From positions 4,464,001 to 4,528,000 of the forward strand of contig NZ_CP130713.1 in NCBI RefSeq assembly GCF_030553055.1: a stretch of 64,000 bases of DNA, written 5' to 3'. Under the pieces are notes generated by a model. That model worked only from the letters and a program-made list of their open reading frames with translations, made no database searches and was not told the DNA's origin. Source of the stretch: Streptomyces sp. XD-27 (GTDB taxonomy: Bacteria; Actinomycetota; Actinomycetes; Streptomycetales; Streptomycetaceae). Positions 14,552 through 49,016 of this stretch are shown piece after piece; position 1 is the first letter of the stretch; each line of letters starts with the position of its first letter. The translations under genes and the position numbers were made by a program.

Positions 14552-16947
14552 ATGGCGGGGCCTCTCACCCCTCATCAGCTGGACCTACCCCCCACCCTGG
14601 CCGCCGCGGAGCTGACCGCCGACAACCGTGTGATCGTGCTGGTGATCGCGGCGGTCGCGGTGGCGGCGCTCGCCGTCGCCATGGTGCTCGTACGACAAGT
14701 GCTCGCGGCGGGCGAGGGCACGGACAACATGAAGAAGATCGCCGCGGCGGTGCAGGAAGGCGCCAATGCCTATCTGGCACGGCAGTTGCGTACGCTCGGC
14801 GGTTTCGCCGTCGTCGTGTTCTTCCTGCTCATGCTGCTGCCGGCCGACAACTGGTCGCAGCGCGCGGGCCGTTCCGCGTTCTTTTTGATCGGCGCGGGAT
14901 TCTCGGCGGCCACCGGGTATATCGGGATGTGGCTGGCGGTCCGCAGCAATGTGCGGGTGGCCGCGGCCGCGCGCGCGGCGACCCCGGCGGAAGGCGAGCC
15001 GGAGCGCGACCTGACGGCCGTTTCGCACAAGGCCATGAAGATCGCGTTCCGTACGGGCGGCGTGGTCGGCATGTTCACCGTGGGGCTGGGCCTGCTGGGC
15101 GCCTCCTGCGTGGTGCTCGTGTACGCCGCCGAGGCCCCAAGGTGCTGGAGGGCTTCGGCCTCGGCGCCGCGCTCATCGCGATGTTCATGCGGGTCGGCGG
15201 CGGCATCTTCACCAAGGCGGCCGACGTCGGCGCCGACCTCGTGGGCAAGGTCGAGCAGGGCATCCCGGAGGACGACCCGCGCAACGCCGCGACCATCGCG
15301 GACAACGTGGGCGACAACGTCGGCGACTGCGCGGGCATGGCGGCGGACCTCTTCGAGTCCTACGCCGTGACGCTCGTCGCCGCGCTGATCCTCGGCAAGG
15401 TGGCCTTCGGCGACGCCGGTCTCGCCTTCCCGCTGATCGTCCCGGCCATCGGCGTCGTCACCGCGATGATCGGCATCTTCGCGGTGGCGCCGCGCCGCAC
15501 CGACCGCAGCGGGATGACCGCCATCAACCGCGGCTTCTTCATCTCCGCCGTCATCTCGCTGGCCCTGGTGGCGGGTGCGGTCTTCGCGTATCTCCCGTCC
15601 TCGTACGCCGACTTGGACGGCGTCACGGATCAGGACATCCTCACCCACGGGGGCGACCCGCGGGTGCTGGCGCTGATCGCGGTCGCCATCGGCATCGTGC
15701 TCGCCGCCCTGATCCAGCAGCTCACGGGCTACTTCACCGAGACCAACCGGCGGCCCGTCCGCGACATCGGCAAGACGTCGCTGACCGGCCCCGCCACCGT
15801 CATCCTCTCCGGCGTCTCCATCGGCCTGGAGTCCGCGGTCTACTCGGCGGTGCTGATCGGTCTGAGCGTCTACGGCGCCTTCCTGCTCGGCGGCAGCAGC
15901 ATCATGCTCGCGCTGTTCGCGGTCGCGCTCGCCGGCACCGGCCTGCTCACCACCGTCGGAGTCATCGTCGCCATGGACACCTTCGGCCCGGTCTCCGACA
16001 ACGCCCAGGGCATCGCCGAGATGTCCGGTGACGTGCAGGGCGCGGGCGCGCAGGTGCTCACCGACCTCGACGCGGTCGGCAACACCACCAAGGCCATCAC
16101 CAAGGGCATCGCGATCGCCACGGCGGTGCTGGCCGCGGCCGCGCTCTTCGGCTCGTACCGCGACGCCATCGCCGAGGCGGTCGACGACGTGGGCGTCCAG
16201 GTCGCCGGGGAGCTGAACCTGAGCCTGGACATCTCCCAGCCGAACAACCTCGTCGGGCTCGTCCTCGGTGCCGCCGTCGTCTTCCTCTTCTCCGGGCTGG
16301 CGATCAACGCCGTGTCGCGGTCGGCGGGCGCGGTGGTCTACGAGGTCCGGCGGCAGTTCCGCGAGAAGCCCGGGATCATGGACTACACCGAGAAGCCGGA
16401 GTACGGGCGGGTCGTCGACATCTGTACCAAGGACGCGCTGCGCGAGCTGGCCACGCCCGGACTGCTCGCGGTCATGGCGCCGATCACGGTCGGCTTCGCG
16501 CTCGGCGTCGGCGCCCTCGGCTCGTTCCTGGCGGGCGCGATCGGCACCGGGACGCTGATGGCGGTCTTCCTCGCGAACTCCGGCGGTGCCTGGGACAACG
16601 CGAAGAAGCTGGTGGAGGACGGGCACCATGGCGGCAAGGGCAGTGAGGCCCACGCCGCGACGGTCATCGGCGACACGGTCGGCGACCCGTTCAAGGACAC
16701 CGCCGGTCCGGCGATCAACCCGTTGCTGAAGGTGATGAACCTGGTGGCGCTCCTGATCGCGCCGGCCGTGGTGAAGTTCTCCTACGGCGACGACGCCAGC
16801 CCCGGGCTGCGGGCCGGCATCGCCGTCCTGGCCGTCGTGATCATCGTGAGCGCGGTCTACATCTCCAAGCGGCGCGGAATCGCCGTGGGTGACGAAGGCA
16901 ACGCCGAGCGGATCGCGAAGCAGGCCGACCCGGCGGTGGTGTCGTAG
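14552..16947 (+). pseudogene. hppA: Membrane H+-translocating pyrophosphatase, frameshifted
   Basis: About 798 residues when repaired. The first frame runs from ATG 14552 (AAGGAGG upstream) to VLVYAAEAP; the second resumes at KVLEGFGLGAALIAMF, so one C is missing from the C run at 15135-15138. Everything else is intact: the pyrophosphate-binding motif DNVGDNVGDCAGMAADLFES, GNTTKAITKG (lysine marks the K+-independent class), GDTVGDPFKDTAGPAINPLL, and about 16 membrane helices. The enzyme hydrolyses pyrophosphate to pump protons across the plasma membrane. The single homopolymer deletion looks like a sequence error rather than decay. Confidence 0.93.
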
Positions 16948-16972
16948 CCGAGACGGCCCACCGGCCCTTCAA

Positions 16973-17016
16973 CGGACGGGCGGGCAGTGCGGATTGACGC
17001 ACTGTCCGCCCGTCCG
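16973..17016. terminator. hppA terminator
   Basis: A 19-base stem (16973-16991 with 16998-17016, one G-T pair) and a six-base loop, 26 bases after the hppA stop. Confidence 0.8.
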
Positions 17017-17150
17017 CATGACGAGTTCCCGGACACATCGGGCTTGGTGCAAATGGCTTCATTAGCCGCCGTACGGGACGCTCGCCCGGCGGCCTTCGTC
17101 CTTTGGGCGTGTATGTTCCGGGGCCGAGAGCCATGGAAGGGACCAATCCG

Positions 17151-17720
17151 GTGAACAAGAAGCTCGCGATGGCACTGTCCGGCGGTGCGGCACTCGTACT
17201 GGCGCTGACCGGCTGCAGCGATGACGAGGACGAAAGCAAGAAGAAGGCCGATGCCTGGGCCAAGCAGGCCTGTGACGACATGCAGCCGCAGCTGAAGAAG
17301 ATCGTGGACGCCAACGTCTCGCTCGACAAGGCCAAGCACGAGCCGGACCAGAAGAAGTACCAGAAGGTTGCGCTGACGGCCTTCGGCCAGATCTCGCAGG
17401 GGTACAGCGGTCTCTCCAAGGCGATCAAGGACGCCGGCGCGCCGCCGGTCGACGACAGCGAGAAGCTCCAGAAGGACACGATCGCCAAGCTCGACGCCGC
17501 CGCAAAGGGGTTCACGGAGCAGCGGACCGCGGTCCAGAAGCTCGACACCTCCGACAAGGGCAAGTTCGCCAAGGGACTCCAGGACATCAGCGCCAACGTG
17601 GAGGTGGTCAACAAGTCGGGTGCCGACGCGCTGAAGAAGCTTCAGGTCGGTGACCTCGGTGAGGCGATGGCGCGGCAGCCCGGCTGCCAGAAGACGGTGA
17701 CGCCGGCGCCGTCCATGTGA
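17151..17720 (+). CDS. Small secreted lipoprotein, helical, function unknown
   Basis: 189 residues. MNKKLAMALSGGAALVLALTGC is a lipoprotein signal peptide ending in an LTGC lipobox, so the mature protein is anchored to the outer face of the membrane. The rest is lysine-, aspartate- and alanine-rich and predicted helical (KKKADAWAKQACDDMQPQLK), with a second cysteine pair position near the C-terminus (QPGCQKT). GTG 17151 with GGAAGGGA eight bases upstream gives the best signal peptide; ATG 17133 is an alternative. Common in Streptomyces between hppA and the methyltransferase gene; role unknown. Confidence 0.82.
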   Translation: MNKKLAMALSGGAALVLALTGCSDDEDESKKKADAWAKQACDDMQPQLKKIVDANVSLDKAKHEPDQKKYQKVALTAFGQISQGYSGLSKAIKDAGAPPVDDSEKLQKDTIAKLDAAAKGFTEQRTAVQKLDTSDKGKFAKGLQDISANVEVVNKSGADALKKLQVGDLGEAMARQPGCQKTVTPAPSM

Positions 17721-17819
17721 CCGCCGCGCCGGCTCGTCGCGCCCGCTCGTCGCGTTCGACGCGCCCGCTCGCCGCGTTGAAGGAGTCACGCCGGGCGCGG
17801 CGGCGCGGGTGCTGCGCGG

Positions 17820-17843
17820 ATTGTCAGCGCCTGCCCTGACAAT
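17820..17843 (+). promoter_or_regulatory. RecA-NDp-like promoter and perfect inverted repeat before the methyltransferase gene
   Basis: TTGTCAGCG (17821-17829), eight bases, then GACAAT (17838-17843) fits the PafBC-dependent DNA-damage promoter TTGTCRGTG-N8-TAnnnT with two changes. The same bases form ATTGTCA-N10-TGACAAT, a perfect seven-base inverted repeat. GTG 17850 follows six bases after the -10, so the transcript would be leaderless. Confidence 0.45.
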
Positions 17844-17849
17844 GGGTCT

Positions 17850-19490
17850 GTGAGTACGCACCTGCCCAGCGGCCCGCCGACCGCCGACCCCGCCCGTACC
17901 GCCCGCCTCCGAGACGCCCTGCGTTCGGCCGACTTCACCGCCGAGGGCCTGCTCGACCTGCTCGGCGCGCCCGCCTACGCCGCCCTCGCGCGCGGGGAGA
18001 CGGTCCCCGCCGAGCGCGCCACCCGCGGGGACGGCGCCCTGGAGACGCTGGTGCGGCTGTTCCTGCTGCAGCGCCCCGTGCCGTACGGGCGGGCCCGCGC
18101 CGTGCTGCCCGTCGAGGACTGCCTCGCCGACGGCTGGCTGGTGCGGTCCGGCGCCGAAGCGGGCGGCGTCGGCGCCGTACGGTCCGGTGACGCGGAGGCC
18201 GGCCCCGTACGGACCGGTGGTACGGCAGCCGGTGCCGTACGGACCGGTGGTGCGGAAGACGCCGTGCGCGCGGTCGTGGACGTGCGGCCGTACGGCGGCC
18301 CGGAGGGCCAGGACTGGTGGATCGTCTCGGACCTGGGCTGTGCGGTCGGCGGTGCGGGCGGCATCGGCGGCCACGGCCCCACCGCAGTGGACCGCTCCCA
18401 ACTGGTCCTGGGCGTCGGCGGAGCGTCCACCACGCTGGCCGGACTGACGGTCCGTACGCCGGTGGGCAAGGCGCTCGACCTCGGCACCGGCTCCGGCATC
18501 CAGGCGCTGCACGCAGCCCAGCACGCCACGCACGTGACGGCGACGGACCTCAACCCCCGCGCCCTGCGGTTCGCGCGGCTGACGCTGGCGCTGTCCGGGG
18601 CGCCCGAGGCCGATCTGCGCGAGGGCTCCCTCTTCGAGCCGGTCGGCGACGAGACGTACGACCTCATCGTCTCCAACCCGCCCTTCGTGATCTCCCCCGG
18701 CGCCCGGCTCGTCTACCGCGACGGGGGCCTGAGCGGCGACGCGCTGTGCCGCACGCTGGTGCAGCAGTCCGCGGCCCACCTCAACGACGGCGGATGGTGC
18801 CAGCTGCTCGCCAACTGGCAGCACGTCGAGGGCGAGGACTGGCACGACCGGCTGCGGTCCTGGGTGCCGCGCGGCTGCGACGCGTGGATCGTGCAGCGCG
18901 AGGTGCAGGACATCACCCAGTACGCCGAACTGTGGCTGCGCGACGCGGGGGACCATCTCGGCGACCCCGCGCGGTATGCCGAGCGGTACGACGCGTGGCT
19001 GGCCGAGTTCGAGGCCCGCAAGACGCGGGCCGTGGGACTTGGCTGGATCACGCTGCGCAAGACCGGCTCCGACCGGCCGTCGATCACCGTGGAGGAGTGG
19101 CCGCACCCGGTCGAGCAGCCGCTGGGTCCCGCCGTCGTCGCCCACTTCGAGCGCCAGGAGTATCTGCGGACGCACGACGACGCCGCGCTGCTCGCCGCGC
19201 GCTTCCGGCTGGCCGACGAGGTGGTGCAGGAGCAGGTCGGGCTGCCGGGGGCGGAGGACCCGGAGCACGTGGTGCTCCGGCAGAACCGCGGCATGCGGCG
19301 GGCGACCAAGGTGGACACGGTCGGCGCGGGCTTCGCGGGCGTCTGCGACGGAACGCTCAGCGCGGGCCGCATCCTGGACGCCATCGCGCAGCTGCTCGGC
19401 GAGGACTCGGTGCTGCTCCGCGACCGTACGCCGGAGTCGATCCGGCTCCTGGTCGAGCAGGGGTTCCTGCTTCCGGTGACGGACGAGTAG
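17850..19490 (+). CDS. Class I SAM-dependent methyltransferase
   Basis: 546 residues. A helical N-terminal domain, then VGKALDLGTGSGIQALHAAQ (SAM-binding motif I) near residue 210 and SNPPFVISPGAR near 275. NPPF is the N-methyltransferase motif IV of HemK/RsmC-like enzymes acting on RNA, protein glutamine or DNA amino groups. The C-terminal ~200 residues form an additional domain with no identified motif. Residues 111-140 are three 10-residue repeats encoded by 30-base units, probably an expanded surface loop. GTG 17850 is probably leaderless (see the promoter entry). Target unknown. Confidence 0.85.
   Translation: MSTHLPSGPPTADPARTARLRDALRSADFTAEGLLDLLGAPAYAALARGETVPAERATRGDGALETLVRLFLLQRPVPYGRARAVLPVEDCLADGWLVRSGAEAGGVGAVRSGDAEAGPVRTGGTAAGAVRTGGAEDAVRAVVDVRPYGGPEGQDWWIVSDLGCAVGGAGGIGGHGPTAVDRSQLVLGVGGASTTLAGLTVRTPVGKALDLGTGSGIQALHAAQHATHVTATDLNPRALRFARLTLALSGAPEADLREGSLFEPVGDETYDLIVSNPPFVISPGARLVYRDGGLSGDALCRTLVQQSAAHLNDGGWCQLLANWQHVEGEDWHDRLRSWVPRGCDAWIVQREVQDITQYAELWLRDAGDHLGDPARYAERYDAWLAEFEARKTRAVGLGWITLRKTGSDRPSITVEEWPHPVEQPLGPAVVAHFERQEYLRTHDDAALLAARFRLADEVVQEQVGLPGAEDPEHVVLRQNRGMRRATKVDTVGAGFAGVCDGTLSAGRILDAIAQLLGEDSVLLRDRTPESIRLLVEQGFLLPVTDE
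18181..18270 (+). repeat. Three tandem 30-bp repeats inside the methyltransferase gene
   Basis: Units 18181-18210, 18211-18240 and 18241-18270 begin GG(T/A)CCGGTG and each encodes ten residues (RTGGTAAGAV-like). In frame, so the coding sequence is preserved. Confidence 0.85.
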
Positions 19491-19647
19491 CCGGGGCTCC
19501 GACCACCGGAGCCGGCCCGTGCCGCGCACCGATGTGGCCGGGAGACATGGCCGGGAGATGTGGCCGGGAACCGTCTGGACAGGCCGGACGCGCTTTGTTC
19601 ACCCGGGGTTCTCGCGGACGCCTTCCCCAGGTGGCATGCTCCCGCGC

Positions 19648-19845
19648 ATGGAGAGCGGACCCGCGATCTTCGCCGGTACGGCGTTCATGCTGTTCGGCCT
19701 CGGCCTGGTGCTGTGGACGGCGGTGCGCGTCCGGCTGCGCCGGCCGGTGGCGGAAGGCGCGCATCCGGTTACCGGGCCGCTTCTTTCCCTCCTCATCGGT
19801 GCCGCGGCGCTGGGCGGCGGAATCTGGTGCCTCGGCTCCGTGTGA
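19648..19845 (+). CDS. Small two-helix membrane protein
   Basis: 65 residues with two hydrophobic helices (IFAGTAFMLFGLGLVLWTAV and LLSLLIGAAALGGGIW) joined by a basic loop (RVRLRRPVAEGAHPV). ATG 19648 is about seven bases after CATGCT, a possible -10 of a leaderless message; ATG 19636 is an in-frame alternative. No family is recognised. It lies between the methyltransferase gene and topA. Confidence 0.6.
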   Translation: MESGPAIFAGTAFMLFGLGLVLWTAVRVRLRRPVAEGAHPVTGPLLSLLIGAAALGGGIWCLGSV

Positions 19846-20064
19846 CCAGGGCTCCCCACCCCGCGTGACGCGGGTCTCGTGACAGTGGTGTGCCGGTCCG
19901 GGCGGCAGACAGGACGCTTGTCGGGTTACCGTTCGAGTGGCGTTGTGGGCTTTTTCCGTTTGACACGGGGGCGGGATGTACCGTCACACTCCGCAGCGTC
20001 ACCGTAATGACACGGAGCCGTAGAGGTCCCGTTCACCGAGCGTCGACCGGAGAGAAGAGCGAAG

Positions 20065-27765: not shown

Positions 27766-27922
27766 GCCATCCGGTGGAGACCCGCCAGAGGGTCTCCCCT
27801 CTCCCACTCAGGGCGCCGGTGCTGGGGCGGCGGCGCCCGGACCGCGCGTCCAGCGCGACCCCTCCCGCGCACGGCCCAGCGCGGGCCCGCCGCGCGGGTG
27901 GCCGCACACCGTCCGGCCGGTG

Positions 27923-27945
27923 TTGTCAGTGCCGTGCCCCACAAT
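27923..27945 (+). promoter_or_regulatory. RecA-NDp-like DNA-damage promoter upstream of holB
   Basis: TTGTCAGTG (27923-27931) matches the conserved upstream half exactly; eight bases later comes CACAAT (27940-27945), close to TAnnnT. In mycobacteria this TTGTCRGTG-N8-TAnnnT element is recognised with PafBC after DNA damage. It lies 62 bases before the holB start. Confidence 0.5.
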
Positions 27946-28006
27946 GGAGATCCCCGCGGGACGACCGTGCGGGAATGACCGCGAGAACGCCATGCGGGAG
28001 GCGACG

Positions 28007-29340
28007 ATGGCCGTGTGGGACGACCTGGTCGGGCAGGACCGGGTGGCTGTCCAGCTCACCGCTGCCGCGCGGGACGCGGACGCGTTGGTCACCGCTGCGG
28101 CGACCGCGGCGGCCGAGGGGGCAGGTTCCCGCGAGGGGGCGGGTTCCCGCGCGCCCATCGCCGCGGGCGTTTCCGCGGCCACCGGCACACCAGGTGCGAC
28201 CACCTCCGGGCCCGACGCACACGCCGCCCCCACCACCGCCCCCACCGCGTCCAAGATGACGCACGCCTGGCTCTTCACCGGCCCGCCCGGCTCCGGGCGG
28301 GCCACCGCCGCCCGGGCGTTCGCCGCCGCGCTGCAGTGCGTCAGCCCGGACCGGGCCCTCGGCGGGGTGCCCGGCTGCGGGTTCTGCGACGGCTGCCACA
28401 CCGCCCTGGTCGGCACGCATGCCGACGTGGAGGTCGTCCGTACCGATCTGCTCAGCATCGGCGTCAAGGAGACCCGGGAGCTGGTGCGCCGCGCCCAACT
28501 CTCCCCGGCGGGCGGCCGCTGGCAGGTCATCGTCCTGGAGGACGCCGACCGGCTGACCGAGGGCGCGGCCAACGTCCTGCTGAAGGCCGTCGAAGAGCCC
28601 GCGCCCCGCACCGTGTGGCTGCTGTGCGCGCCGTCTCTCGAAGACGTCCTGCCGACGATCCGCTCCCGGTGCCGCCACCTCACGCTCCGTACGCCTCCGG
28701 TCGGCGCCGTGGCGGACGTCCTGGTCCGTCGCGACGGCATCGCCGCGGACCTCGCCGCCACTGTCGCCCGCGCCACCCAGGGCCACATAGGACGGGCCCG
28801 CCGCCTCGCCACCGACGAGCGGGCACGGTCCCGCCGGGCGGCCGTCCTCAAGCTGCCGTTGCGCGTGGACGACGTGGGGGCTGCCTGAAAGCGGCGCAGG
28901 AATTGATCGACGCGGCGTCCGAGGACGCCAAGCAACTCGCGGAAGAGGTCGACACGAAGGAGACCGAGGAACTGCGCGCCGCCCTGGGCGCCGCCGCCGG
29001 CCCCGGCGGGCGGCTCCCGCGCGGCACGGCGGGGGCCATGAAGGAGCTCCAGGACCGGCAGAAGCGCCGCGCGACCCGTACGCAGCGCGACACCCTCGAC
29101 CTCGCGCTGACCGACCTGACGGGCTTCTACCGTGACGTGCTGGCGCTCCAGCTCGGCTCGGAGGTGGCGATAGCCAACGCCGACGTGCGCGACGCGCTGG
29201 AGCGGGTGGCGCGCGAGTCGCGGCCGGAGCGGACACTGCGCCGTATCGAGGCGGTGACCGCGTGCCGCCAGGCTCTGGACAGCAATGTGGCGCCGCTGCT
29301 GGCGGTGGAGGCGATGACGATGGCCCTGCGGTCAGGCTGA
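28007..29340 (+). pseudogene. holB: DNA polymerase III subunit delta', frameshifted
   Basis: About 444 residues when repaired. MAVWDDLVGQDRVAVQLTAA is the usual start (ATG 28007, GGGAGGCG upstream). A low-complexity insertion (residues ~38-80) precedes the AAA+ core: WLFTGPPGSGRATAARAFA (Walker A with Arg for Lys, normal for delta'), a cysteine cluster GCGFCDGCH, and DADRLTEGAANVLLKAVEEP. The frame breaks at the five-G run 28876-28880 (VDDVG then a stop); reading resumes as CLKAAQELIDAASEDAKQ to the stop at 29340. One missing G restores it, so an assembly error is likely. It is part of the sliding-clamp loader. Confidence 0.9.
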
Positions 29341-29572
29341 CGCACCACCGGGACCGGGTCTCCCCAACTCATTCCGCTTCCCGCTTCCCGCTTCCCGTTC
29401 CCCTCCCGACCGCGTCCCGATGTGCGCGTCCAGGACGGGATCGGGGCGGCCTGTCACCCGTACGGGTGCCTGTCCCCCGTACGGGTGGGTCCGTTTGCAC
29501 ATGGAGCGTAGTTGCCCGGATACGCTCCGCACAGCCGATGCCGCGCAGTGACGGACCGAAGGGCGCCGATCG

Positions 29573-31113
29573 ATGGACATCAGCCGCAGACTCCGCAGCA
29601 CCGGCACGGTGCTGGCGGCAGCGGCCCTGCTGATTTCGGGGTGCACGTCGGAGGACTCCGGCGACCCCTCGGGCACGAGCCGAGGCGCCGAGGCGGGCCC
29701 TCCGGCCGCTCTCAAGCGCTACTACGAGCAGAAGCTGAACTGGCACGCCTGCGAGGCGACCGGCTTCGAATGCGCCACCCTCAGGGCCCCCTGGACTACA
29801 ACCGGCCCCGGGCCGCCGACGACCTGAAGCTGGCGGTCTCCCGCAAGAAGGCGACGGGGCGCGGCAAGCCGATCGGTTCCCTGCTGGTCAACCCGGGCGG
29901 ACCGGGCGGCTCCGCCATCGGCTATCTGCACGGTTACGCGGGTGCCAGCTATCCGGCGCCGGTGCGGGCCCGATACGACATGGTGGCCATGGACCCGCGC
30001 GGCGTGGCGCGCAGCACCCCCGTGGAGTGCCTCACCGACCGGCAGATGGACGCGTACACCCAGACCGACCAGACCCCGGACAACGGGGCCGAGGTCGACC
30101 GGCTGGTCACGGCGTTCAGGGACTTCGCGGGCGGCTGCGAGCGGCGCAGCGGCGAACTCCTCGGCCATGTCTCGACGGTCGAGGCGGCCCGCGACATGGA
30201 CGTCCTGCGGGCGGCGCTCGGCGACGAGAAGCTGACGTACGTGGGCGCCTCGTACGGCACCTTCCTCGGGGCCACGTACGCCGACCTCTACCCGGCCCGG
30301 GTCGGCCGGCTCGTCCTCGACGGCGCGATGGACCCCTCCCTGCCCGCCGAGCGGGTGAACCGCGACCAGACCGCGGGTTTCCAGACGGCGTTCACGGCTT
30401 TCGCCGAGGACTGCGCGAAGCAGGAGGACTGCCCCCTGGGCACGGACGGCCCGGCGACCGCCGCTTCCCGTCTCACCGCCTTCTTCGACCGGCTCGACCG
30501 CGCGCCGGTGCCGACCGGTGACGGCGGCCGCGACCTCGGGGAAGCGCTGGCCACCACGGGGGTGATCGCCGCGATGTACGACGAGAGCTCCTGGCCCCAG
30601 CTCCGCTCGGCCCTGCGAGCCGCCATGAACGGCGACGGCGCCCCCCTCCTCCAGCTCGCCGACCTCTACTACGAGCGGAAGGACGGCAAGTACGCCAACC
30701 TCATGTACGCCAACTCCGCCGTCAACTGCCTCGACCTGCCCCCGTCCTTCCGCACCCCCGGCGAGGTGCAGAAGGCCCTCCCCGCCTTCCGCGAGGCATC
30801 CCCGGCCTTCGGCGAGGGGCTGGCCTGGGCCTCGTTGAACTGCTCCGCGTGGCCCGTCCGCTCCACCGGCGCCCCGCACGCCCTGCACGCCAAGGGCGCC
30901 GCCCCCATCCTGGTCGTCGGCACCACCCGCGACCCGGCCACCCCGTACCGCTGGGCCAAGGCCCTGTCCGCCCAACTCGACTCCGGCACCCTGCTGACGT
31001 ACGACGGCGACGGCCACACCGCATACGGCCGCGGCAGCGACTGCGTCGACAAGGCGATCAACACCTACCTCCTCGAGGGCACCCCGCCACCCCCAGCCAG
31101 CCGCTGCTCCTGA
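29573..31113 (+). pseudogene. Secreted S33/TAP-like peptidase lipoprotein, frameshifted
   Basis: About 514 residues when repaired. The first frame (ATG 29573) encodes a lipoprotein signal peptide with lipobox ISGC and continues to FECATLRAP; the second resumes at LDYNRPRAADDLKLAVSRKK, so one C is missing from 29787-29791. The rest is a typical alpha/beta-hydrolase of the tripeptidyl aminopeptidase family: VNPGGPGGSAIGYL, the nucleophile elbow VGASYGTFLG and a C-terminal TAP-like domain with catalytic His in YDGDGHTAYG. It would trim peptides outside the cell. Same error type as hppA and holB. Confidence 0.88.
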
Positions 31114-31753: not shown

Positions 31754-32062
31754 GAATCCTCGTCGGCTTGATGGTGCGTGTTGCGGGGTTCCTCTGCCGG
31801 GCCGCGGCAGCCCGATCCGTGACCGTAGTCGCGCACACGCCCCGGAGCCGTCCACTCGGCGCGATGTCCGCGCATGCTGGCAGGTTGATGCCACGGCGGG
31901 CCGGGAGTTCCTGTCATGGCGATGGGCCGCCGCACCCGCGCGAGGTCCGGCACGCGATGTCCGATTCCCGCCAGCGCGCGTCGGCGCGGAGTCGGAGACT
32001 GGAGTCGGGAAGAGCGAAGAGATCCGCCACGAGGTCGGTGGCGGCCGTGGGAGGAAACGATC
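31754..32062. other. 309-base divergent gap between cupin gene and ogt
   Basis: Should hold the promoters of both genes. No strong inverted repeat, tandem repeat or convincing -35/-10 pair was seen, and no additional gene. Confidence 0.4.
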
Positions 32063-32581
32063 ATGACGGTCTATACGACGGTGGACAGCCCGCTGGGCGA
32101 GCTGCTGCTCGTGGGGGAGGAGTCGCCGAGCGCGGCGGGCGGGGTCGCGCTGGCCTCGCTGTCGATGCCGGAGCAGAAGGGCGCGGCCGTCGTGCGGGAG
32201 GGGTGGCGGCGGGCCCCCGACGCGTTCGCGGAGGTCACGCGGCAGCTGAACGCGTACTTCGACGGCACGCTGACCCGTTTCACCCTCACCTGCACCGAGC
32301 AGGGGACCGACTTCCAGCGGAAGGTGTGGGCGGCGCTGGAGGGCGTTCCGTACGGCACCACCACCAGTTACGGGGAGCTCGCCGACCGGGCCGGCATCGC
32401 GCGGGCGGCCGTGCGGGCGCTGGGGACCGCGATCGGGGCGAACCCGCTGCTGCTGGTGCGGCCGTGCCACCGGGTGATCGGCGCGGACGGCTCGCTCACC
32501 GGCTACGCGGCCGGCCTCGAGCGCAAGCGGCAGCTGCTGGCGCACGAGGGGGCCCGGGCAGTGCCCGCCGGGCGAGCCTGA
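32063..32581 (+). CDS. ogt: Methylated-DNA-protein-cysteine methyltransferase
   Basis: 172 residues. LLLVRPCHRVIGADGSLTGY contains the acceptor cysteine (PCHRV, near residue 135) and VPYGTTTSYGELADRAG the helix-turn-helix with RAVRALGTA recognition helix. It transfers the methyl group from O6-methylguanine to itself, a suicidal repair step. ATG 32063 follows GGGAGGA. alkB begins 16 bases after its stop, making a two-gene alkylation-repair operon. Confidence 0.94.
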   Translation: MTVYTTVDSPLGELLLVGEESPSAAGGVALASLSMPEQKGAAVVREGWRRAPDAFAEVTRQLNAYFDGTLTRFTLTCTEQGTDFQRKVWAALEGVPYGTTTSYGELADRAGIARAAVRALGTAIGANPLLLVRPCHRVIGADGSLTGYAAGLERKRQLLAHEGARAVPAGRA

Positions 32582-32597: not shown

Positions 32598-33358
32598 ATG
32601 CCCGGCACCCGTAAGGACTGTGCGGAGATCGCCCCCGGTGTCGGTCACGTCCGTGGGGACGCTGCCTCCGGCCCGGCCACGCCCCTGCCGAGACCGTTCC
32701 CGGTCTCGACCACGTCCGTACCGAGATCGCCCCCGGCGCCGTCCACCTGTCGCGCTGGCTCGGCCTCGACCAGCAGCGCCGGCTGGTCGAGGCGTGCCGC
32801 GGCTGGGCCGCCGGTCCCGTGCCCATGCGGCATACCAGGCTGCCGCGCGGCGGGGTGATGTCCGTGCAGACAGTGTGCGTCGGCTGGCACTGGCAGCCGT
32901 ACCGCTACAGCCGCACCGCCGACGACGTGAACGGCGGGCGGGTTGCGGCCTTTCCTGGCTGGCTGGCGGAGCTGGGCCGCCGCGCGCTCGCCGACGCGTA
33001 CGGGGACCCGGCCGCGGGCGAGGCGTACGCCCCCGACACCGCCCTGGTCAACTTCTATGACGGGCAGGCCAGGATGGGCATGCACCAGGACAAGGACGAA
33101 CGGTCCGCGGCGCCCGTGGTCTCCCTCAGCATCGGCGACACCTGCGTCTTCCGGTTCGGCAACCCCGACAGCCGGGGCAAGCCGTACTCCGACATCGAAC
33201 TGCGCTCCGGCGACCTGTTCGTCTTCGGCGGACCGGCACGCTTCGCCTACCACGGCGTGCCCAAGGTCCGGCCGGGCACGGGTGGCCCCGCCACCGGCCT
33301 CGCGGCCGGTCGCCTCAACATCACCCTGCGGGTCACCGGCCTCAGCGATCCGGCATGA
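32598..33358 (+). pseudogene. alkB: AlkB-like DNA/RNA dealkylase, frameshifted near its 5' end
   Basis: About 253 residues when repaired. The C-terminal part is clear: LGWHWQPY-like GWHWQPYRYSRT, LVNFYDGQARMGMHQDKDER (the HxD iron ligands), and RLNITLRVTG with the 2-oxoglutarate arginine. Coding sequence continues upstream of the first in-frame start in that frame (GTG 32819), reading RTEIAPGAVHLSRWLGLDQ, with no ATG/GTG before an in-frame TAA at 32610. ATG 32598, right after ogt and with a strong GGGGAGGACGAGG site, lies one frame away. One missing base between about 32613 and 32720 joins them. EIAPG occurs in both frames, hinting at a small duplication too. Confidence 0.82.
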
Positions 33359-37630: not shown

Positions 37631-37637
37631 AGCTCGT

Positions 37638-40000: not shown

Positions 40001-40020
40001 GCGCCCGCGGGTTGGCCGGG

Positions 40021-40705: not shown

Positions 40706-40728
40706 TGCAAGGGCAGATGCACGTGCAC
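40706..40728 (-). promoter_or_regulatory. Shared element upstream of the ATPase gene
   Basis: On the minus strand GTGCACGTGCATC followed by TGCCCTTGCA; 20 of 23 bases match the site at 39671. A related GTGCATGTGC lies nearby at about 40664. Probably an operator in the divergent ATPase/XRE region. Confidence 0.55.
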
Positions 40729-40912
40729 GGAGGCGATTTGGTCATTCCTGGCGTCATTCGCACCTGATTCTTCCTACGCACTCTTGTGTACGCATCGCAC
40801 ATGAGTGACGACTTGTGCACAGCGCGGAGCCCGAAAGTGGCAGACTGCGCGGCCGGGGGCGACGGGGGCCGGCCCCCGGAAGGGTGCGTTCCGTACAGGG
40901 AGGGTCACGGAA

Positions 40913-41776: not shown

Positions 41777-41892
41777 CGGGGCATCCCAACTCAACTAACT
41801 CATCAGTACGATGACGGAACATCAGGAGCACACCAGGAGCCCCACGGCACGCGTGGGTGCCATGAGCACCCCGTCCTCCAGATAGGGATCGC

Positions 41893-43350
41893 ATGTCCTA
41901 CTTCTCCGAGTTGGCGTTTCAGTACATCGACGGCGAATGGCGGCCCGGGACCGGGTCCTGGGACATCGTCGATTTCAATCCGTACAACGGGGAGAAGCTC
42001 GCTTCCATTACCGCGGCATCGGCCGACGAGATCGACCAGGCGTACCGCGCCGCCGAGCGCGCCCAGCCCGCATGGGGCGCCACCAATCCCTACACCCGGC
42101 GGCTGGTGCTCGAGCGCGCGCTGCGCATCGTCGAGGACCGCGAGGAGGAACTGACGGAGGCGATCGTCGCCGAGGTCGGCGGCACGCTCCTCAAGGCGGC
42201 CTTCGAGCTGCATCTGGCCAAGGAGTTCCTGCGGGAGGCGATACAGCTCGCGCTGCGGCCGGAAGGAAGGATTCTCCCGTCGCCCGGCGACGGCAAGGAG
42301 AACCGGCTCTACCGGGTGCCGGTCGGGGTCGTCGGGGTGATCAGCCCCTTCAACTTCCCGTTCCTGCTGTCGCTGAAGTCGGTCGCCCCCGCGCTGGCGC
42401 TGGGGAACGCGGTGGTCCTCAAGCCGCATCAGAACACCCCGATCTGCGGCGGCGGCCTGGTGGCGAAGGTCCTGGAGGACGCCGGGCTGCCGCCCGGTCT
42501 GCTCAACGTCGTGGTGACCGACATCGCCGAGATCGGCGACGCGCTCATCGAACACCCGGTGCCGAAGGTCATCTCCTTCACCGGCTCCGACCGGGTCGGC
42601 CGGCATGTCGCGACGGTCGCGGCCTCCCACTTCAAGCGCACCATCCTGGAGCTCGGCGGCAACAGCGCCCTCGTCGTCCTGGACGACGCCGACCTCGACT
42701 ACGCGGTGGACGCGGCCGTCTTCAGCCGCTTCGTCCACCAGGGCCAGGTCTGCATGGCCGCCAACCGGGTGCTCGTGGACCGCAAGGTCGAGCGGGAGTT
42801 CACCGAGAAGTTCGTGGCGAAGGTGCGGTCGCTGACGGTCGGCGACCCCGGCGACCCCGCCACGCACATCGGCCCGCTGATCAACGAGGGGCAGGCCGAG
42901 GCCGTCACCTCGCTGGTCGACCAGACCATCGCCGAGGGCGCCACGGCCCTGGTCCACGGGCGGGCCCAGGGCGCCCTGGTCGGGCCGACCGTGCTCACCG
43001 GCGTCGCGGAGGACTCCGCGGTGCTGCGGCAGGAGATCTTCGGCCCGGTCGTCCTGCTGATCCCGTTCGACGGCGACGACGAGGCCGTCCGCATCACCAA
43101 CGCCACGCCGTACGGGCTCAGCGGAGGCGTCCACACCGGCGACATCGAGCGCGGCGTCCGCTTCGGGCAGCGCATCGAGACCGGGATGTTCCACGTCAAC
43201 GACGGTACGGTCCACGACGAGCCGATCGTGCCGTTCGGCGGCGAGAAGCGCTCGGGACTGGGGCGGCTCAACGGCGAGTCGATGGTGGAGGCCTTCACCA
43301 CGACGAAGTGGATCTCCATCCAGCACGGGCGCACGCAGTTCCCGTTCTGA
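41893..43350 (+). CDS. NAD(P)-dependent aldehyde dehydrogenase (benzaldehyde/vanillin type)
   Basis: 485 residues. SPFNFPFLLSLKSVAPALAL, the glutamate motif ILELGGNSALVVLDDADLDY and the catalytic cysteine in FVHQGQVCMAANR (near residue 287) are standard for the ALDH superfamily; EIFGPVVLLIPF and PFGGEKRSGLGRLNG follow. The closest general pattern is the aromatic aldehyde (vanillin/benzaldehyde) dehydrogenases that turn aldehydes into acids. Substrate not determined. Confidence 0.9.
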   Translation: MSYFSELAFQYIDGEWRPGTGSWDIVDFNPYNGEKLASITAASADEIDQAYRAAERAQPAWGATNPYTRRLVLERALRIVEDREEELTEAIVAEVGGTLLKAAFELHLAKEFLREAIQLALRPEGRILPSPGDGKENRLYRVPVGVVGVISPFNFPFLLSLKSVAPALALGNAVVLKPHQNTPICGGGLVAKVLEDAGLPPGLLNVVVTDIAEIGDALIEHPVPKVISFTGSDRVGRHVATVAASHFKRTILELGGNSALVVLDDADLDYAVDAAVFSRFVHQGQVCMAANRVLVDRKVEREFTEKFVAKVRSLTVGDPGDPATHIGPLINEGQAEAVTSLVDQTIAEGATALVHGRAQGALVGPTVLTGVAEDSAVLRQEIFGPVVLLIPFDGDDEAVRITNATPYGLSGGVHTGDIERGVRFGQRIETGMFHVNDGTVHDEPIVPFGGEKRSGLGRLNGESMVEAFTTTKWISIQHGRTQFPF

Positions 43351-43368
43351 TCTCTCTCGCTCCGGAGC

Positions 43369-43427
43369 GGTTGAGGACAGAGAGGTTGAGGGCGAGAGGT
43401 TGAGGACAGAGAAGTTGAGGACAGAAG
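43369..43427. repeat. 15-bp direct repeats between ALDH and DinB genes
   Basis: Four imperfect copies of GAGGTTGAGGACAGA, in the 148-base gap. Confidence 0.8.
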
Positions 43428-43498
43428 CTGTCCGCAAGGGTACGTAGCGTCGGAGACGTCGAGAGAGCGAACGAACCGGCGCGAAAGGCAGGACCCCC

Positions 43499-44050
43499 AT
43501 GCCCACATTGGTGAACCAGGAAGCCCACGGCGACGAGGCGGGCGCCCTCCTGGGATTCCTGGAGGCGCAGCGCGGCGCGATCCGCCGGACGCTGCACGGC
43601 CTGACCGACGAGCAGGCGCGGCGGAAGCCCTCCGCGAGCGAACTGTCGCTGGTCGGCGTGGTCAAGCATGTCGCCGAGGCCGAGCAGAGCTGGGTCGAGG
43701 ACGCCAAGGGCGTGCCGCACGCCATCCCACGGGACCACACCAACTGGCACCTCAGTTTCGAGCTGGAGGAGGGCCGGACCGTCGCCGACGTCCTCGCCTT
43801 CTGGGACGGCGTGGCGGTGGAGACGGAGCGGTTCATCCGCTCCCTGCCCGATCTGAACGGGACGTTCCCGCTCCCCAGGGTGCCGTGGTTCCCCGAGGGC
43901 AGCGTGCGGTCGATGCGCTTCCTGCTGCTGACGCTGATCCAGGAGATGGCGCGGCACGCGGGCCACGTGGACGTCATCCGCGAGTCGCTGGACGGGAAGA
44001 CGGCGTTCGTCCTGATCGACGAGACGGGCGCCGAGACGGGCGCCGCGTAG
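43499..44050 (+). CDS. DinB/DUF664-family protein
   Basis: 183 residues. A four-helix DinB-like fold: LGFLEAQRGAIRRTLHGLTD, VGVVKHVAEAEQSWVED with the first histidine ligand, and LTLIQEMARHAGHVDVIRES with the paired histidines. The family contains mycothiol- or bacillithiol-dependent transferases; the target here is unknown. Confidence 0.85.
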   Translation: MPTLVNQEAHGDEAGALLGFLEAQRGAIRRTLHGLTDEQARRKPSASELSLVGVVKHVAEAEQSWVEDAKGVPHAIPRDHTNWHLSFELEEGRTVADVLAFWDGVAVETERFIRSLPDLNGTFPLPRVPWFPEGSVRSMRFLLLTLIQEMARHAGHVDVIRESLDGKTAFVLIDETGAETGAA

Positions 44051-44139
44051 CCGCCTCCCGGCGCGGGGCTGGCCGGGGTCCTGCGGCCCCGTGGCTCCCG
44101 TGGCCCCGCGGGGCTCCTCTCCAGGAATGACGGGACCCG

Positions 44140-44171
44140 TCTAACCTGGGCCGCATCTAACCTGGGCCGCG
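44140..44171 (+). promoter_or_regulatory. Tandem 16-bp duplication carrying two -10-like boxes before the PadR gene
   Basis: TCTAACCTGGGCCGCA at 44140-44155 is repeated at 44156-44171. Each copy contains TAACCT, a TAnnnT box. It could provide two start sites or a doubled regulator half-site. Confidence 0.35.
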
Positions 44172-44198
44172 GCGCAGGTCGGGCGGAATGAGGAGACG

Positions 44199-44831
44199 AT
44201 GTCAGCGATCCGGCTGCTGGTGCTGGGCGCGGTCCGCCAGCACGGGCGGGCGCACGGCTACCAGGTCCGCAACGACCTGGAGTTCTGGGGCGCGCACGAG
44301 TGGTCGAACGCCAAGCCCGGGTCGATCTACCACGCGCTCAAGCAGATGGCCAAGCAAGGGCTGATGATCGCCCACGACGTCGCGCCGAGTACGGCGGGCG
44401 GCCCGCCCCGTACCGAGTACGAGCTAACCGACGCCGGCGAGGCGGAGTTCTTCCACCTGCTGCGGCAGGCGCTGGCGCGCCACGACAACAAGATCGACGA
44501 GCTGACGGCCGGGGTCGGCTTCATCGTCGATCTGCCGCGCGCCGAGGCCATCGCGCTGTTGAAGGAGCGGGTCGCCGCGCTGGAGCGGTGGCGGGCCGAG
44601 GTGACCCGGCACTGGATGCCGCCGGACGGCGGCCCCGGGGAGTGGGGCCACATCGGCGAGATCATGAAGCTCTGGGTGCACTCCTCCGACAGCGGCGCGG
44701 AGTGGACGCGTGGGCTGATCGAACGGCTGGAGGCGGGGGCGTACGTCATGGCGGGGGAGGGCGAGCGCTCGGTGGAGGTGCTGCCGGACGGCGTCCGGAA
44801 CCCGTTCGCCGACGGCGGGACGCCTCGCTAG
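44199..44831 (+). CDS. PadR-family transcriptional regulator
   Basis: 210 residues. The winged helix is RLLVLGAVRQHGRAHGYQVR, WSNAKPGSIYHALKQMAKQG and RTEYELTDAGEAEFFHLLRQ; a C-terminal helical dimer domain follows (ALLKERVAALERWRAEVTRH). ATG 44199 follows GAGGAGA. Local repressor for an unknown, perhaps transport-related, target. Confidence 0.9.
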   Translation: MSAIRLLVLGAVRQHGRAHGYQVRNDLEFWGAHEWSNAKPGSIYHALKQMAKQGLMIAHDVAPSTAGGPPRTEYELTDAGEAEFFHLLRQALARHDNKIDELTAGVGFIVDLPRAEAIALLKERVAALERWRAEVTRHWMPPDGGPGEWGHIGEIMKLWVHSSDSGAEWTRGLIERLEAGAYVMAGEGERSVEVLPDGVRNPFADGGTPR

Positions 44832-44834
44832 TCG

Positions 44835-44925
44835 GGTTCGAGGCGTACGGGCTTCTTCGAGGTGTGCGGGTGCCTTCGAGGCGTACGCGTCTTCGAGGTG
44901 TGCGGGTGTCTTCGAGGATTGCGTG
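44835..44925. repeat. Degenerate TTCGAGG repeats after the PadR gene
   Basis: Five TTCGAGG(C/T)GT(A/G)CG(G/C) elements at irregular 18-25 base steps in the 304-base gap 44832-45135; no gene seen there. Confidence 0.65.
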
Positions 44926-45135
44926 CGTCGGTCTTCCCGCTCGCCGCTCGCCGTACGCCGTATGCCGGTTCCGGCGGCTGGGGCGGCGGGCGGGGCGCCG
45001 ATGTGACGGGAGTGGCGGCGGTGAACGGGCGGCTACGGACGGGGCGGCGCGGAGCTCGGAGGGCGGCCACGAGTACGTCCCGTACTGTCGCGCAGGCCGC
45101 AGCGCCGCCGCCGACTACCGGATACCGTGGCTCAT

Positions 45136-47355
45136 ATGGCGATCAACAGAGCGGGAACGGCAGGCGAGCCCGGCTACGCCCTGCTCATCGCCGCCGGGCC
45201 CAGTGACAAGCACGGCAAGCAGCGCGTCATGGACGCGACGGCCGCACTGCCCCAACTCGCGGCCGTCGCCCCGGCCGTACTGCTGGGCACCCCGGCCGGG
45301 GCGAGCGTGGTCCAGCTCGTGGACCCGGCCGACCCGCAGACCGTGCTGACCCACCTGCGGACCGCGGCGGCCCACTCGGGCCCGGTGCTGGTCTACCTCG
45401 CGGGGCAGTTGACCCTGGACGCCAAGCAGCGGATGCCGCACCTGGCACTGGCCCGCACCACGCCCAGGACGGCCCGGTACACCGCGCTGCCCTGGCACTG
45501 GATCGCCGCCGAGCTGGGGCGGCGGCCGGCGGGCGGCACGACCCTGATCGCCGACCTGGTGGGCGACGAAACGATCTGGCCGCAGCTGGCCGAGCTGGGC
45601 GGCCCGGCGGTGGCGCACCACCTCGCCGCCGGGCTCGCGCTGTACGGAACGATCGCGCCCGTACCGCCCAAGCGGCAGCTCGCGACGCCGCACTACAGCC
45701 GGGCGCTCGCCAGCCTGCTGCGGGGCGCGGCGGAACGCCCGCAGCCCGCGCACCTGCACGAGCGGGCGGCCCTGGAGGCGGGCCTGGGAGCGGGCCCGGA
45801 ACTCCTGCTGGCGGTGGGGCCGATGGGGGAGGGCGCGGGGCTCGGTGGTGTGGAGGCGGTGCCGTCCGATACGCCGTACTTCGGCGCGGGGCCGGAGCCG
45901 TCCGATACGCCGTACTCCGGTGCGGCGTTCCCTGGCATGGGGTCGATGCCTGCCGGGGCGGGGTTCGCCGGTGGGGAGGCGGCGCCCGCCGGGGCCGCGG
46001 TGCCCCGTGGTGCGGCGTGGCCGCCTTTCCCCGCCCCGCCCCTTTCGGGCGGCATACGGCAGGGCTTGCCCGCCCCCGGGGCGGGCACGGACGCGCCCGT
46101 AGCGGACTCGCTGATACCGGGCGGGGCGCCCGCCGTCCCGCCCGCGTCCGCGTCCGCGTCTGAGTCTGCGTTCCCGTCCGCACCTGGCACGGGCACGGGT
46201 TCGGCTCCGATGAGCGCCCCGGACGCGACCCCGATCGCGGGGCAGGACCCGGACGCGACCCCGGGTCAGGATCCGGAGCCGGGCCGCGAATCGGGGCTGG
46301 ACCGGGAGCCGGAGGAGGGCCGCGCACCGGGGCCGGACCGAGAGCCGGACGGGGGCCACGAAACGGTGCCGGGCCGGGAAGCCATACCGGGCCGGGAGCC
46401 CGCGCCGGAGCGGGGACCCGCGCCGGACGGGGAAGCTGCGCCGGGCCGGGAGCTCGCGCTTGAGCGGGAATCTGCGCCGGAGCTCGCGCCCACGCAAGCC
46501 CCGGTGCCCGGACCTGTTCCCGCGTCCGAGCCGGAACTGGGACCCGAGCCGGTCCCTGCGCCCGCGCTGGACCCTGCGCCCGCGCCGGACCCCGCGATTG
46601 TCGGAGACGTCCCGCCCGTTGAAGACGCCCAGTTCGCCGCACCAGCCCCCTCCGCTGTACCGGCGCCTTCCGCCGGGGCTACCCCTTCCCCCGCGCCGGC
46701 GCCCTCCGCCGGAGCTGCCCCATCCGCTGTACCGGCGTCCTCCACCGCACCGGCGTCCTCAGCCGCACCAGCCCCCTCCGTCGGAGCCGTCTCCTCTGCT
46801 GAGCCCGGCCCCTCCGCCGGGCCCAGTCCCTCCGCTCCGTTCCCGCCTCCGCCGCCCCGGCCGCCTCACCCGCCCCAGCAGCATCTGCCCCCGCAGCCAC
46901 GGCCGGTCCCGCAGCCGCCGGACGAGCGGCACGCCGCGATCCTCGAAGCCGCGCGTGCCGGGCGGCACAGCGAGGCCGCCGCCATGGCCGCCGCATGGGA
47001 GCAGGAGGCGATGCGCGCGTCAGGGCCCAGTTCGCCGGAGACGGTCCACTGGCTGGAGGTACGGGCCGACCTCGCCCGGCTCGCCGACGACCCCGCGCGC
47101 GCCTGCGAGTTGTGGATGGCCGCGGCCCGGATCCGGCTCGGCAACCATCAGCATCCCGGTGACCCGGACGTCGAGGGCGCCGTGGACCGCGCCCACCACC
47201 AGTGGCAGCAGGTGCAGGACCCGGTGCGGGCCGGTGCGCTGGCCCCGGCGCTGGTCGAACTGCGGACGCGGGTGCCCGGCCGCCGCCCCGGCGCGCTGGC
47301 CGCGGCGCGGCGCCGGGCGGAGATCCTCCGGGTCCAGACCCTGCGTACGGGCTGA
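45136..47355 (+). CDS. Large Streptomyces protein of unknown function with proline/glutamate-rich linker
   Basis: 739 residues. The N-terminal ~220 residues look like a compact alpha/beta domain (YALLIAAGPSDKHGKQRVMD, SGPVLVYLAGQLTLDAKQRM), possibly caspase-like or effector-associated in layout but with no certain catalytic pair. Residues about 230-600 are low-complexity: first Gly/Ala, then PGREPAPERG-type charged repeats, then (A/S)APAPSA repeats. The last ~140 residues are helical and TPR-like (ILEAARAGRHSEAAAMAAAW; ARACELWMAAARIRLG). ATG 45136 with TACCGT seven bases upstream; GTG 45127 is possible. Function unknown. Confidence 0.8.
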   Translation: MAINRAGTAGEPGYALLIAAGPSDKHGKQRVMDATAALPQLAAVAPAVLLGTPAGASVVQLVDPADPQTVLTHLRTAAAHSGPVLVYLAGQLTLDAKQRMPHLALARTTPRTARYTALPWHWIAAELGRRPAGGTTLIADLVGDETIWPQLAELGGPAVAHHLAAGLALYGTIAPVPPKRQLATPHYSRALASLLRGAAERPQPAHLHERAALEAGLGAGPELLLAVGPMGEGAGLGGVEAVPSDTPYFGAGPEPSDTPYSGAAFPGMGSMPAGAGFAGGEAAPAGAAVPRGAAWPPFPAPPLSGGIRQGLPAPGAGTDAPVADSLIPGGAPAVPPASASASESAFPSAPGTGTGSAPMSAPDATPIAGQDPDATPGQDPEPGRESGLDREPEEGRAPGPDREPDGGHETVPGREAIPGREPAPERGPAPDGEAAPGRELALERESAPELAPTQAPVPGPVPASEPELGPEPVPAPALDPAPAPDPAIVGDVPPVEDAQFAAPAPSAVPAPSAGATPSPAPAPSAGAAPSAVPASSTAPASSAAPAPSVGAVSSAEPGPSAGPSPSAPFPPPPPRPPHPPQQHLPPQPRPVPQPPDERHAAILEAARAGRHSEAAAMAAAWEQEAMRASGPSSPETVHWLEVRADLARLADDPARACELWMAAARIRLGNHQHPGDPDVEGAVDRAHHQWQQVQDPVRAGALAPALVELRTRVPGRRPGALAAARRRAEILRVQTLRTG

Positions 47356-47438
47356 GCACGCCTTTCCGTCAGCCCGGTGGCCGGACGAGCCCCGAGCCCC
47401 GGTGAGGGCGCACCCCACCCGCAGGCGCATCCTCGGGT

Positions 47439-47512
47439 GCCGGACACGTTCCAGGTGGGGGCGCGTCCTCCGCGCGCCGGACACGCCCCAGGTGGGGGCG
47501 CGCCCTCCGCGC
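47439..47512. repeat. Two tandem 37-bp repeats before gadB
   Basis: GCCGGACACG-CCAGGTGGGGGCGCG-CCTCCGCGC at 47439-47475 and 47476-47512 with three differences. Confidence 0.85.
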
Positions 47513-47598
47513 GTCATCGGCGAACCTTCCGGGCGCGGCAGCGGCGCCTCTGGTCCTCGGCGCGGCAGCGGCCTCTGGTCCTCCGCGCGGGCCGCGCC

Positions 47599-49016
47599 TC
47601 AGTGATGGAAAGCGGTAGCCGCCGCGCGCGGCCCGTCCGACGGCCGCTCCTGCTGCCGCAGTTCGGGCAGCAGCCGCGTCAGGTCGTCGAGGAGCATGTC
47701 GGCCAGGTCCGCCGAGAACCCGTTGCGGCACACCACCCGCAGCACGGACAGGTCCTGCCGGCGCGGCGGGAAGGTGTAGGCCGGCACCAGCCAGCCCGCC
47801 TCGCGCAGCCGCCGCGAGACGTCGAAGACGTCGTACGCGTCGACGCCGTCCGCCGTCGTGAAGGCGAACACCGGCAGTTGGTCCCCGCGCGTCAGCAGCC
47901 GGAAGTCGCCCAGCGCCGCGATCCGCTCGGCCAGCGAGCACGCCACGTCCCGCGCGGTCTGCTGCACCGCGCGGAAGCCGTCGCGGCCGAGCCGCAGGAA
48001 CGTGTAGTACTGGGCGGCCACCTGCGCTCCGGGCCGGGAGAAGTTGAGCGCGAAGGTCGGCATGTCGCCGCCGAGGTAGTTCACCCGGAAGACGAGCTCT
48101 TCCGGCAGGTCGGCGGCCGTACGCCACAGGGCCCACCCCACCCCGGGTACACCAGCCCGTACTTGTGCCCGGAAGTGTTGATGGACGCGACGCGCGGCAG
48201 CCGGAAGTCCCACTCCAGGTCCGGGTCGAGGAACGGCGCCACCATCGCGCCGGACGCGCCGTCGACATGCACGGGTACGTCGAGCCCCGTACGCTCCTGG
48301 AGCGCGTCGAGCGCCGCGCACACCGCGGCGACCGGCTCGTAGGACCCGTCGAAGGTGGAGCCCAGGACGGAGACGACGCCGATGGTGTTCTCGTCGCACA
48401 GCTCGGCGGCGGCCTGCGGATCGAGGTGGAAGCGCTCGCCGTCCATGGGCACCTGCCGGGCCTCGACCTCCCAGAAGGTGCAGAACTTCTCCCAGCAGAC
48501 CTGGACGTTCACGCCCATCACGAGATTGGGCCGGGCGGTGGCCGGATAGCGGTCGGTGTTCTTCCGCGCCCAGCGGCGTTTGAGCGCCATTCCCGCGAGC
48601 ATGCACGCCTCGCTGGACCCGGTGGTGGAGCAGCCGACGACGCTGTCGGGGTCGGGCGCGTGCCACAGGTCGGCGAGCATCGCGACACAGCGCCGCTCCA
48701 GTTCGGCGGTGCGCGGGTACTCGTCCTTGTCGATCATGTTCTTGTCGCGGCACTCGGCCATCAGCACGTCCGCCTCCGGCTCCATCCACGTGGTGACGAA
48801 GGTGGCGAGGTTCAGCCGTGCGTTGCCGTCGAGCATCAGCTCGTCGTGGACGCAGCGGTACGCCGCCGACGGCGGCATCGGCCCGTCGGGGAGCCGGTGG
48901 CGGGGCGGCGGACCGGACAGGCCGCCGACCGGATCGGCCGTGCCGTAGAACGGGTTGACGGACAGATCGCGTGGTCCGGCCGGACCGCCGGCGCCGGCGC
49001 CCTTATGGAGTGACAT
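47599..49016 (-). pseudogene. gadB: Glutamate decarboxylase, frameshifted
   Basis: About 473 residues when repaired. The first frame covers NPFYGTADPVGGLSGPPP through the PLP lysine segment ASINTSGHKYGLVYPG; the second resumes at VGWALWRTAADLPEELVFRV to the end (AAATAFHH). One G is missing from the run at 48141-48144 (plus coordinates). The PLP enzyme would make GABA from glutamate, consuming a proton. ATG 49016 with TATTGT six bases upstream is probably leaderless. The gene's second half is complete, so this is likely an assembly error. Confidence 0.9.

Follow-up and report, generated by a model that had tools for sequence, protein, structure and literature searches.

Broken genes in the Streptomyces sp. 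XD-27 assembly very probably reflect consensus errors at G/C runs

Introduction

The stretch of DNA analyzed here (the window) comprises 64,000 nucleotides (nt) of the Streptomyces sp. XD-27 genome (contig NZ_CP130713.1, positions 4,464,001 to 4,528,000) and carries genes for an H+-pyrophosphatase (hppA), the delta' subunit of DNA polymerase III (holB), an S33 peptidase, a 2OG-Fe(II) oxygenase (alkB) and a glutamate decarboxylase (gadB). HolB is normally essential. The initial annotation held that each of these five genes is broken by the loss of exactly one base; our analyses place such a loss in hppA, holB, the S33 peptidase gene and gadB at the positions first proposed, while a one-base loss at alkB is only probable. 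Comparisons of the sequences indicate that the breaks are very probably explained by consensus errors in the XD-27 assembly, in which bases would have been lost in or beside G/C runs of about four to six. The breaks are most likely a data-quality warning about the assembly and not biology, with the genes looking broken only through dropped bases.

Genome, relatives and frame model

The XD-27 genome consists of one contig of 7,549,390 bases with a completeness of 96.92, and the GC content of the sampled sequence is 72.1%. Its topA region matches many species of Streptomyces. A 6C RNA (RF01066) was detected at 5067-5140 of the window with 48.8 bits, slightly above the gathering score of 47. The best listed match among 391 other genomes of the genus was the genome designated G082 (94% over 896 of 902 bases), and in one further stretch compared with the genus genomes (275 scored, 49 not) no match nearer than 86% was listed. 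The nucleotide comparison at the breaks drew on 82 relative sequences (L003-L082, G082 and G093), and the numbers given below are those that aligned; for the protein comparison, the best 120 listed homologs each of HolB, GadB and the S33 peptidase were used, with about 8000 scored per search. Frame usage was assessed with a seven-state codon-frame model trained on 277 G082 genes, with our own cut-offs for the length of segments, the gap and the natural overlap. Switches between frames of the same strand counted as natural where the upstream frame ended in a stop within 40 nt and the downstream frame had an ATG or GTG close by; the remaining switches are referred to as frameshift-like.

Broken genes in the window

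The pieces of the four confirmed genes and the intervals in which they break are as follows.

14438..15370, plus strand: open frame of the N-terminal piece of hppA; PF03030 profile 1-137
15135..15138, plus strand: hppA break interval, CCCC; all 60 relatives that aligned carry a net extra base within 30 nt of the run; frame-model switch at 15136
14527..16947, plus strand: open frame of the C-terminal piece of hppA, coding from about 15137; PF03030 profile 143-645; model segment 15137-16941
27920..28888, plus strand: open frame of the N-terminal piece of holB; PF13177 15-159
28876..28880, plus strand: holB break interval, GGGGG; all 73 relatives that aligned carry a net extra base within 30 nt of the run; among 120 proteins, 109 need a step of -1 and 11 a step of -19
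28015..29340, plus strand: open frame of the C-terminal piece of holB; PF09115 43-99, just below the cut-off; model segment 28907-29329
29787..29791, plus strand: break interval of the S33/TAP-like alpha/beta hydrolase, CCCCC; 63 of 71 relatives agree modulo 3; 106 of 120 proteins step by -1
29512..31113, plus strand: open frame of the main (C-terminal) piece of the S33 peptidase; PF00561 and PF08386
48081..49016, minus strand: open frame of the N-terminal piece of gadB; PF00282 17-272
48141..48144, minus strand: gadB break interval, CCCC on the plus strand; 118 of 120 proteins step by -1 at 48135-48147; G082 longer
47599..48789, minus strand: open frame of the C-terminal piece of gadB; PF00282 273-372 at 47860-48144

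At hppA, the PF03030 profile is split between two frames that meet at about 15130, and no second PF03030/hppA match was found in the XD-27 genome. One of the HolB homologs with a -1 step has two such steps, and the step of -19 seen in the others is equal to -1 modulo 3. A single further PF13177 match is listed for the genome, at 4424400 in a frame of 728 amino acids, and is taken to be dnaX. In gadB, the PF00282 profile is divided exactly at position 48144, and residues 289-470 of the G082 GadB protein align to 47602-48147; G082 was the sole relative that aligned here at the nucleotide level (n = 1) and is one base longer, and two of the 120 GadB homologs show no step. For the S33 peptidase, the 71 nucleotide alignments comprise 30 with a net difference of +1, 33 with -2 (equal to +1 modulo 3), and seven with 0 and one with +6, which do not fit; among the homologous proteins a further four show a step of +29 (the same modulo 3) and 10 of 120 have no step at the break, the commonest place of the step being 29782-29794. 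The nearest listed GadB and S33 proteins both come from Streptomyces sp. P1-3 (GadB, 95% over 95%; S33, a protein of 513 amino acids, 91% over 83%) and are of normal length. Thus, alkB excepted, a single-base loss relative to intact relatives was found, as expected of omission errors in long-read assemblies.

The four confirmed breaks also lie at runs of four or five G or C, as had been proposed (CCCC, GGGGG, CCCCC and CCCC, in the order of the list). Several of the relatives shown in the nucleotide alignments have a different base within the run; the lost base is thus not necessarily part of the run and cannot be identified from alignments. The presence of runs at the break sites might suggest that full proteins are rescued from frames truly broken in the DNA, by programmed frameshifting or by transcriptional slippage, and such mechanisms do exist (PMC3711429). 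According to the same source, the sequences involved in slippage are often homopolymers of at least eight bases or two shorter ones combined (PMC3711429), whereas the runs in the window have only four or five. In addition, the split frame is not conserved, since the relatives have one uninterrupted frame, and the losses affect unrelated genes and ribosomal RNA (rRNA) as well, all of which leaves a rescue of this kind with next to no probability.

Frameshift-like switches across the genome

The frame model was applied to 1,004,000 bases of XD-27 in three blocks, with 12 relatives (G082, G093 and ten other single-contig genomes) as the comparison set. In the XD-27 sample 111 of 144 switches were natural, and 33 frameshift-like switches were left (16 in 604 kb, 11 in 200 kb and 6 in 200 kb), as against 8 in the 12 relatives (2 in 580 kb of G082, 2 in 80 kb of G093 and 4 in 400 kb of the ten single-contig genomes). 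Expressed per coding sequence, these are 33 in 834,920 bases and 8 in 858,214 bases, a rate ratio of 4.2 (p = 3.9e-5). The switches are strongly biased towards deletion, 28 of the 33 being -1 and 5 being +1 (p = 6.6e-5). By extrapolation, the whole XD-27 genome would contain about 250 such switches.

Within the window, the frameshift-like calls of the model are exactly the four confirmed sites; a local hot spot was considered and rejected, as 4 calls were found where 1.97 were expected from the rest (P = 0.14). Among the 13 sites of the -1 class in the 4.0-4.6 Mb block, nine align to G082, which is one base longer at all nine, and four gave no alignment.

These counts depend on how switches are filtered. 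A stricter filter gave 30 in XD-27, 4 in the 12 relatives and 13 in all 16 comparison genomes; it was not used because it dropped holB, which has a stop within 12 nt of its break, and the unfiltered counts are given instead. A comparison by tblastn yielded 21 events in XD-27 and 11 in G082. A simple nucleotide walk did not separate the two genomes (27 events in XD-27 and 25 in G082), many of its events seeming to be gene ends, gene starts or antisense frames, and was abandoned.

The sampling was extended to 100 kb from each of four more genomes, in which 0 (G103), 6 (G268), 1 (G075) and 2 (G405) switches were found. The segment from G268 (G268:C1:4000001-4100000), a single-contig Streptomyces genome, has three switches of each sign and is perhaps from an error-bearing assembly too, and the segment from G103 (G103:C1:4420001-4520000) is free of frameshift-like switches; the low completeness of that genome (78%) may have another cause. 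Completeness was rejected as a proxy for frameshift density (G103, 78% and none; G268, 97% and six; G405, 98% and two; G075, 98% and one).

Of the 28 sites of the -1 class, 22 have a G/C run of at least four bases no more than 15 nt away, as do 18 of the 24 outside the window; the share among random coding positions is 22.9% (p = 7e-10 for the full set of 28). We also looked for a sequence motif; the top 6-mer, GGGGAG/CTCCCC, occurs at 5 of 28 sites with G075 pooled with XD-27 and uncorrected for the number of 6-mers, and no claim is made for it.

Broken genes outside the window

Both pieces were scanned against Pfam at 20 of the 24 sites of the -1 class outside the window. At seven of these 20 sites, one family was matched on both sides of the break (DUF5819, a PASTA kinase, ribosomal protein S6, HerA, a PQQ-repeat kinase, PhzF and an amidase), and at another four the two sides matched two families (a SARP-type regulator, a phage terminase, LexA and a TetR regulator), each pair being generally known to belong to one architecture. 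A match on one side only was obtained at five sites, including IPP transferase (miaA) and a sigma factor, and no family match at three. The S6 gene (rpsF) is split into profile parts 1-41 and 39-90, and no other S6 match was found in the genome; thus the only rpsF found and the only holB found are both split. Prophage-like genes (terminase, minor capsid and integrase) were observed around 2.10-2.13 Mb (L183 and L184) at three of the -1 switches.

Frame overlaps are common, as the many natural switches in the XD-27 sample show, and some of the events in the control genomes resemble overlaps with TTG starts; together with the one scanned outside site that has unrelated families on its two sides, this could mean that overlapping neighbor genes, or open frames of high-GC DNA, were taken for broken genes by chance or mis-modelling. 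As a general account this is exceedingly improbable, since homologs cross the junctions at the four window genes, family or architecture is continuous across the break at 11 of the 20 scanned outside sites, and the same model makes fewer calls in G082. It is contradicted for four of the five window genes and could still hold for alkB and for some of the outside sites.

Ribosomal RNA copies as an internal control

The rRNA genes offer a comparison within the same assembly. Among the six 23S copies of XD-27, four indel columns were found, amounting to five single-base losses in four copies and no insertions, and all five losses are inside G/C runs of four to six; the seven 23S copies of G082 are identical. 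As rRNA has no reading frame, these losses are not explicable by lost protein function. At each column the base is kept by other copies, a pattern that looks like a partly random process, as with PacBio continuous long reads (CLR) or low coverage, more than one fully determined by context. One of the four columns is short in two copies and could also be a real shared variant. When 16S copies are included, the tally is 5 losses in 318 copy-runs (33 runs x 6 and 20 runs x 6).

The 23S copies of XD-27 also differ at 42 substitution columns, largely in blocks. Among the copies (L239, L241, L243, L245, L247 and L249), one set of substitutions occurs only in L239 and another is common to L243 and L245, which looks like real heterogeneity of the rRNA operons.

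Origin of the breaks

We propose that base-calling or polishing of long reads would drop a single base in or beside a G/C run of about four to six, after which an intact gene would read as two overlapping frames. On this proposal the DNA of the organism itself should still hold the missing bases, and an error-prone long-read platform with incomplete polishing would stand behind the assembly. Homopolymer undercalling, the reading first put forward for the window, is thus supported by the -1 bias, the enrichment of G/C runs, the excess in the genome sample and the 23S losses. Assembly error is preferred because all three sampled blocks are affected with this bias and enrichment, because single-copy core genes are broken, because like losses occur in individual 23S copies, and because the same errors are known from published long-read assemblies of Streptomyces.

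Several observations weigh against assembly error. No loss was seen in 16S (20 runs x 6), all six copies being identical, and the 23S test consequently carries limited weight. Six of the 28 sites of the -1 class have no G/C run of at least four within 15 nt, and the 4.0-4.6 Mb block has three +1 sites, of which one aligns to G082 but is not supported by the alignment and two are unaligned. Nor is XD-27 unique: adding G103, G268, G075 and G405 lowers the rate ratio to 2.7 (p = 3.9e-4), which suggests that some further assemblies are affected too, and the switches number about 4.0 per 100 kb of coding sequence in XD-27, 7.7 in G268, 3.0 in G093 and 2.4 in G405 (the last three on small counts of 6, 2 and 2). 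Conversely G103, a single contig with a completeness of 78, was expected to be rich in frameshifts and had none in 100 kb. The three -1 switches at prophage-like genes in the 2.0-2.2 Mb block could be real decay, and one of the three joins unrelated families (M78 peptidase and integrase) that may represent two neighboring genes. Finally, P1-3 HolB is absent from the best 120 listed of 8000 scored, though the GadB and S33 proteins of this strain rank first, and the holB break may be common to XD-27 and P1-3, with holB of P1-3 split in its own assembly.

Some of these points would also be expected if slippage during replication of G/C runs had made true single-base deletions and turned the genes into new pseudogenes. 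Slippage, as is generally known, likewise favors one-base losses at runs, decay is normal in prophage-like genes such as those at some of the sites, and the missing P1-3 HolB would suit a real mutation. Nevertheless, true deletions are improbable: rpsF and holB, each with no other copy found, would have been broken simultaneously, the observed rate extrapolates to about 250 new lesions in one strain, the frame model calls just one frameshift-like switch in each of the four broken window genes, and like losses occur in single 23S copies. Still less probable is the specific version in which the losses in S6, HolB, LexA and some 23S copies are real in the DNA and the strain is a recent slippage mutator or one whose frames are corrected by slippage.

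Published precedents

Assembly error has close precedents in Streptomyces. In S. leeuwenhoekii C34, most differences between PacBio and Illumina sequences are C or G omitted in runs of at least three and seen as frameshifts (PMC4487206). Like XD-27, C34 has a single-contig high-GC chromosome in which G/C omissions are visible by frame plot; the difference is that 2934 bases were inserted there from Illumina data (PMC4487206), whereas the approximately 250 switches of XD-27 are extrapolated from sequence alone. A PacBio assembly of S. albus SM254 had 205 indels to be corrected, almost all of them at homopolymers of G or C (PMC4832174), and three soil Streptomyces strains had 70, 295 and 335 differences, the vast majority being single-base homopolymer insertions on correction (PMC6923854). 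The indel density in these four strains is of the same order as the XD-27 estimate, although their indels came from Illumina reads and the XD-27 breaks from sequence comparison (PMC4832174; PMC6923854). On gene-fragmenting errors in long-read assemblies, Kastor reports deletion errors that peak after four to five identical bases and many false pseudogenes (PMC12007338); the genome there has 59% GC with A/T runs commonest, in contrast to the 72% GC of XD-27 and the G/C runs tested here.

If the breaks are errors of the assembly, an annotation pipeline would be expected to report genes such as holB, hppA, gadB, rpsF and lexA as split or as pseudogenes, and comparative studies of pathways, essentiality or the loss of genes in XD-27 would be misled. 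A frame-model count combined with a comparison of rRNA copies within one assembly could serve as a cheap, read-free screen for such assemblies.

The alkB region

The fifth gene lies at a tandem repeat, with the following features.

32598..33358, plus strand: alkB, with ATG 32598 in one frame and the oxygenase domain in another from about 32706; PF13532
32620..32736, plus strand: imperfect tandem repeat of 33 bp, 3.6 copies, across the 5' end of alkB (Tandem Repeats Finder)

The oxygenase domain is intact in its frame (PF13532 26-194 within 32819-33358; model segment 32706-33348). Between the upstream stop and 32819 no ATG, GTG or TTG was found in the domain frame, and ATG 32598 opens a different frame. 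The first two repeat copies at the start of the gene are 65 bases apart, counted by eye, which is one under 2 x 33. The gene is present in only 2 of the 113 sequences searched (G082 and L012), with N-termini that are not alignable. As the 5' end does not align with relatives, a one-base loss in alkB is no more than probable. Directly before the repeat region lies a gene for an O6-methylguanine-DNA methyltransferase (31916-32581).

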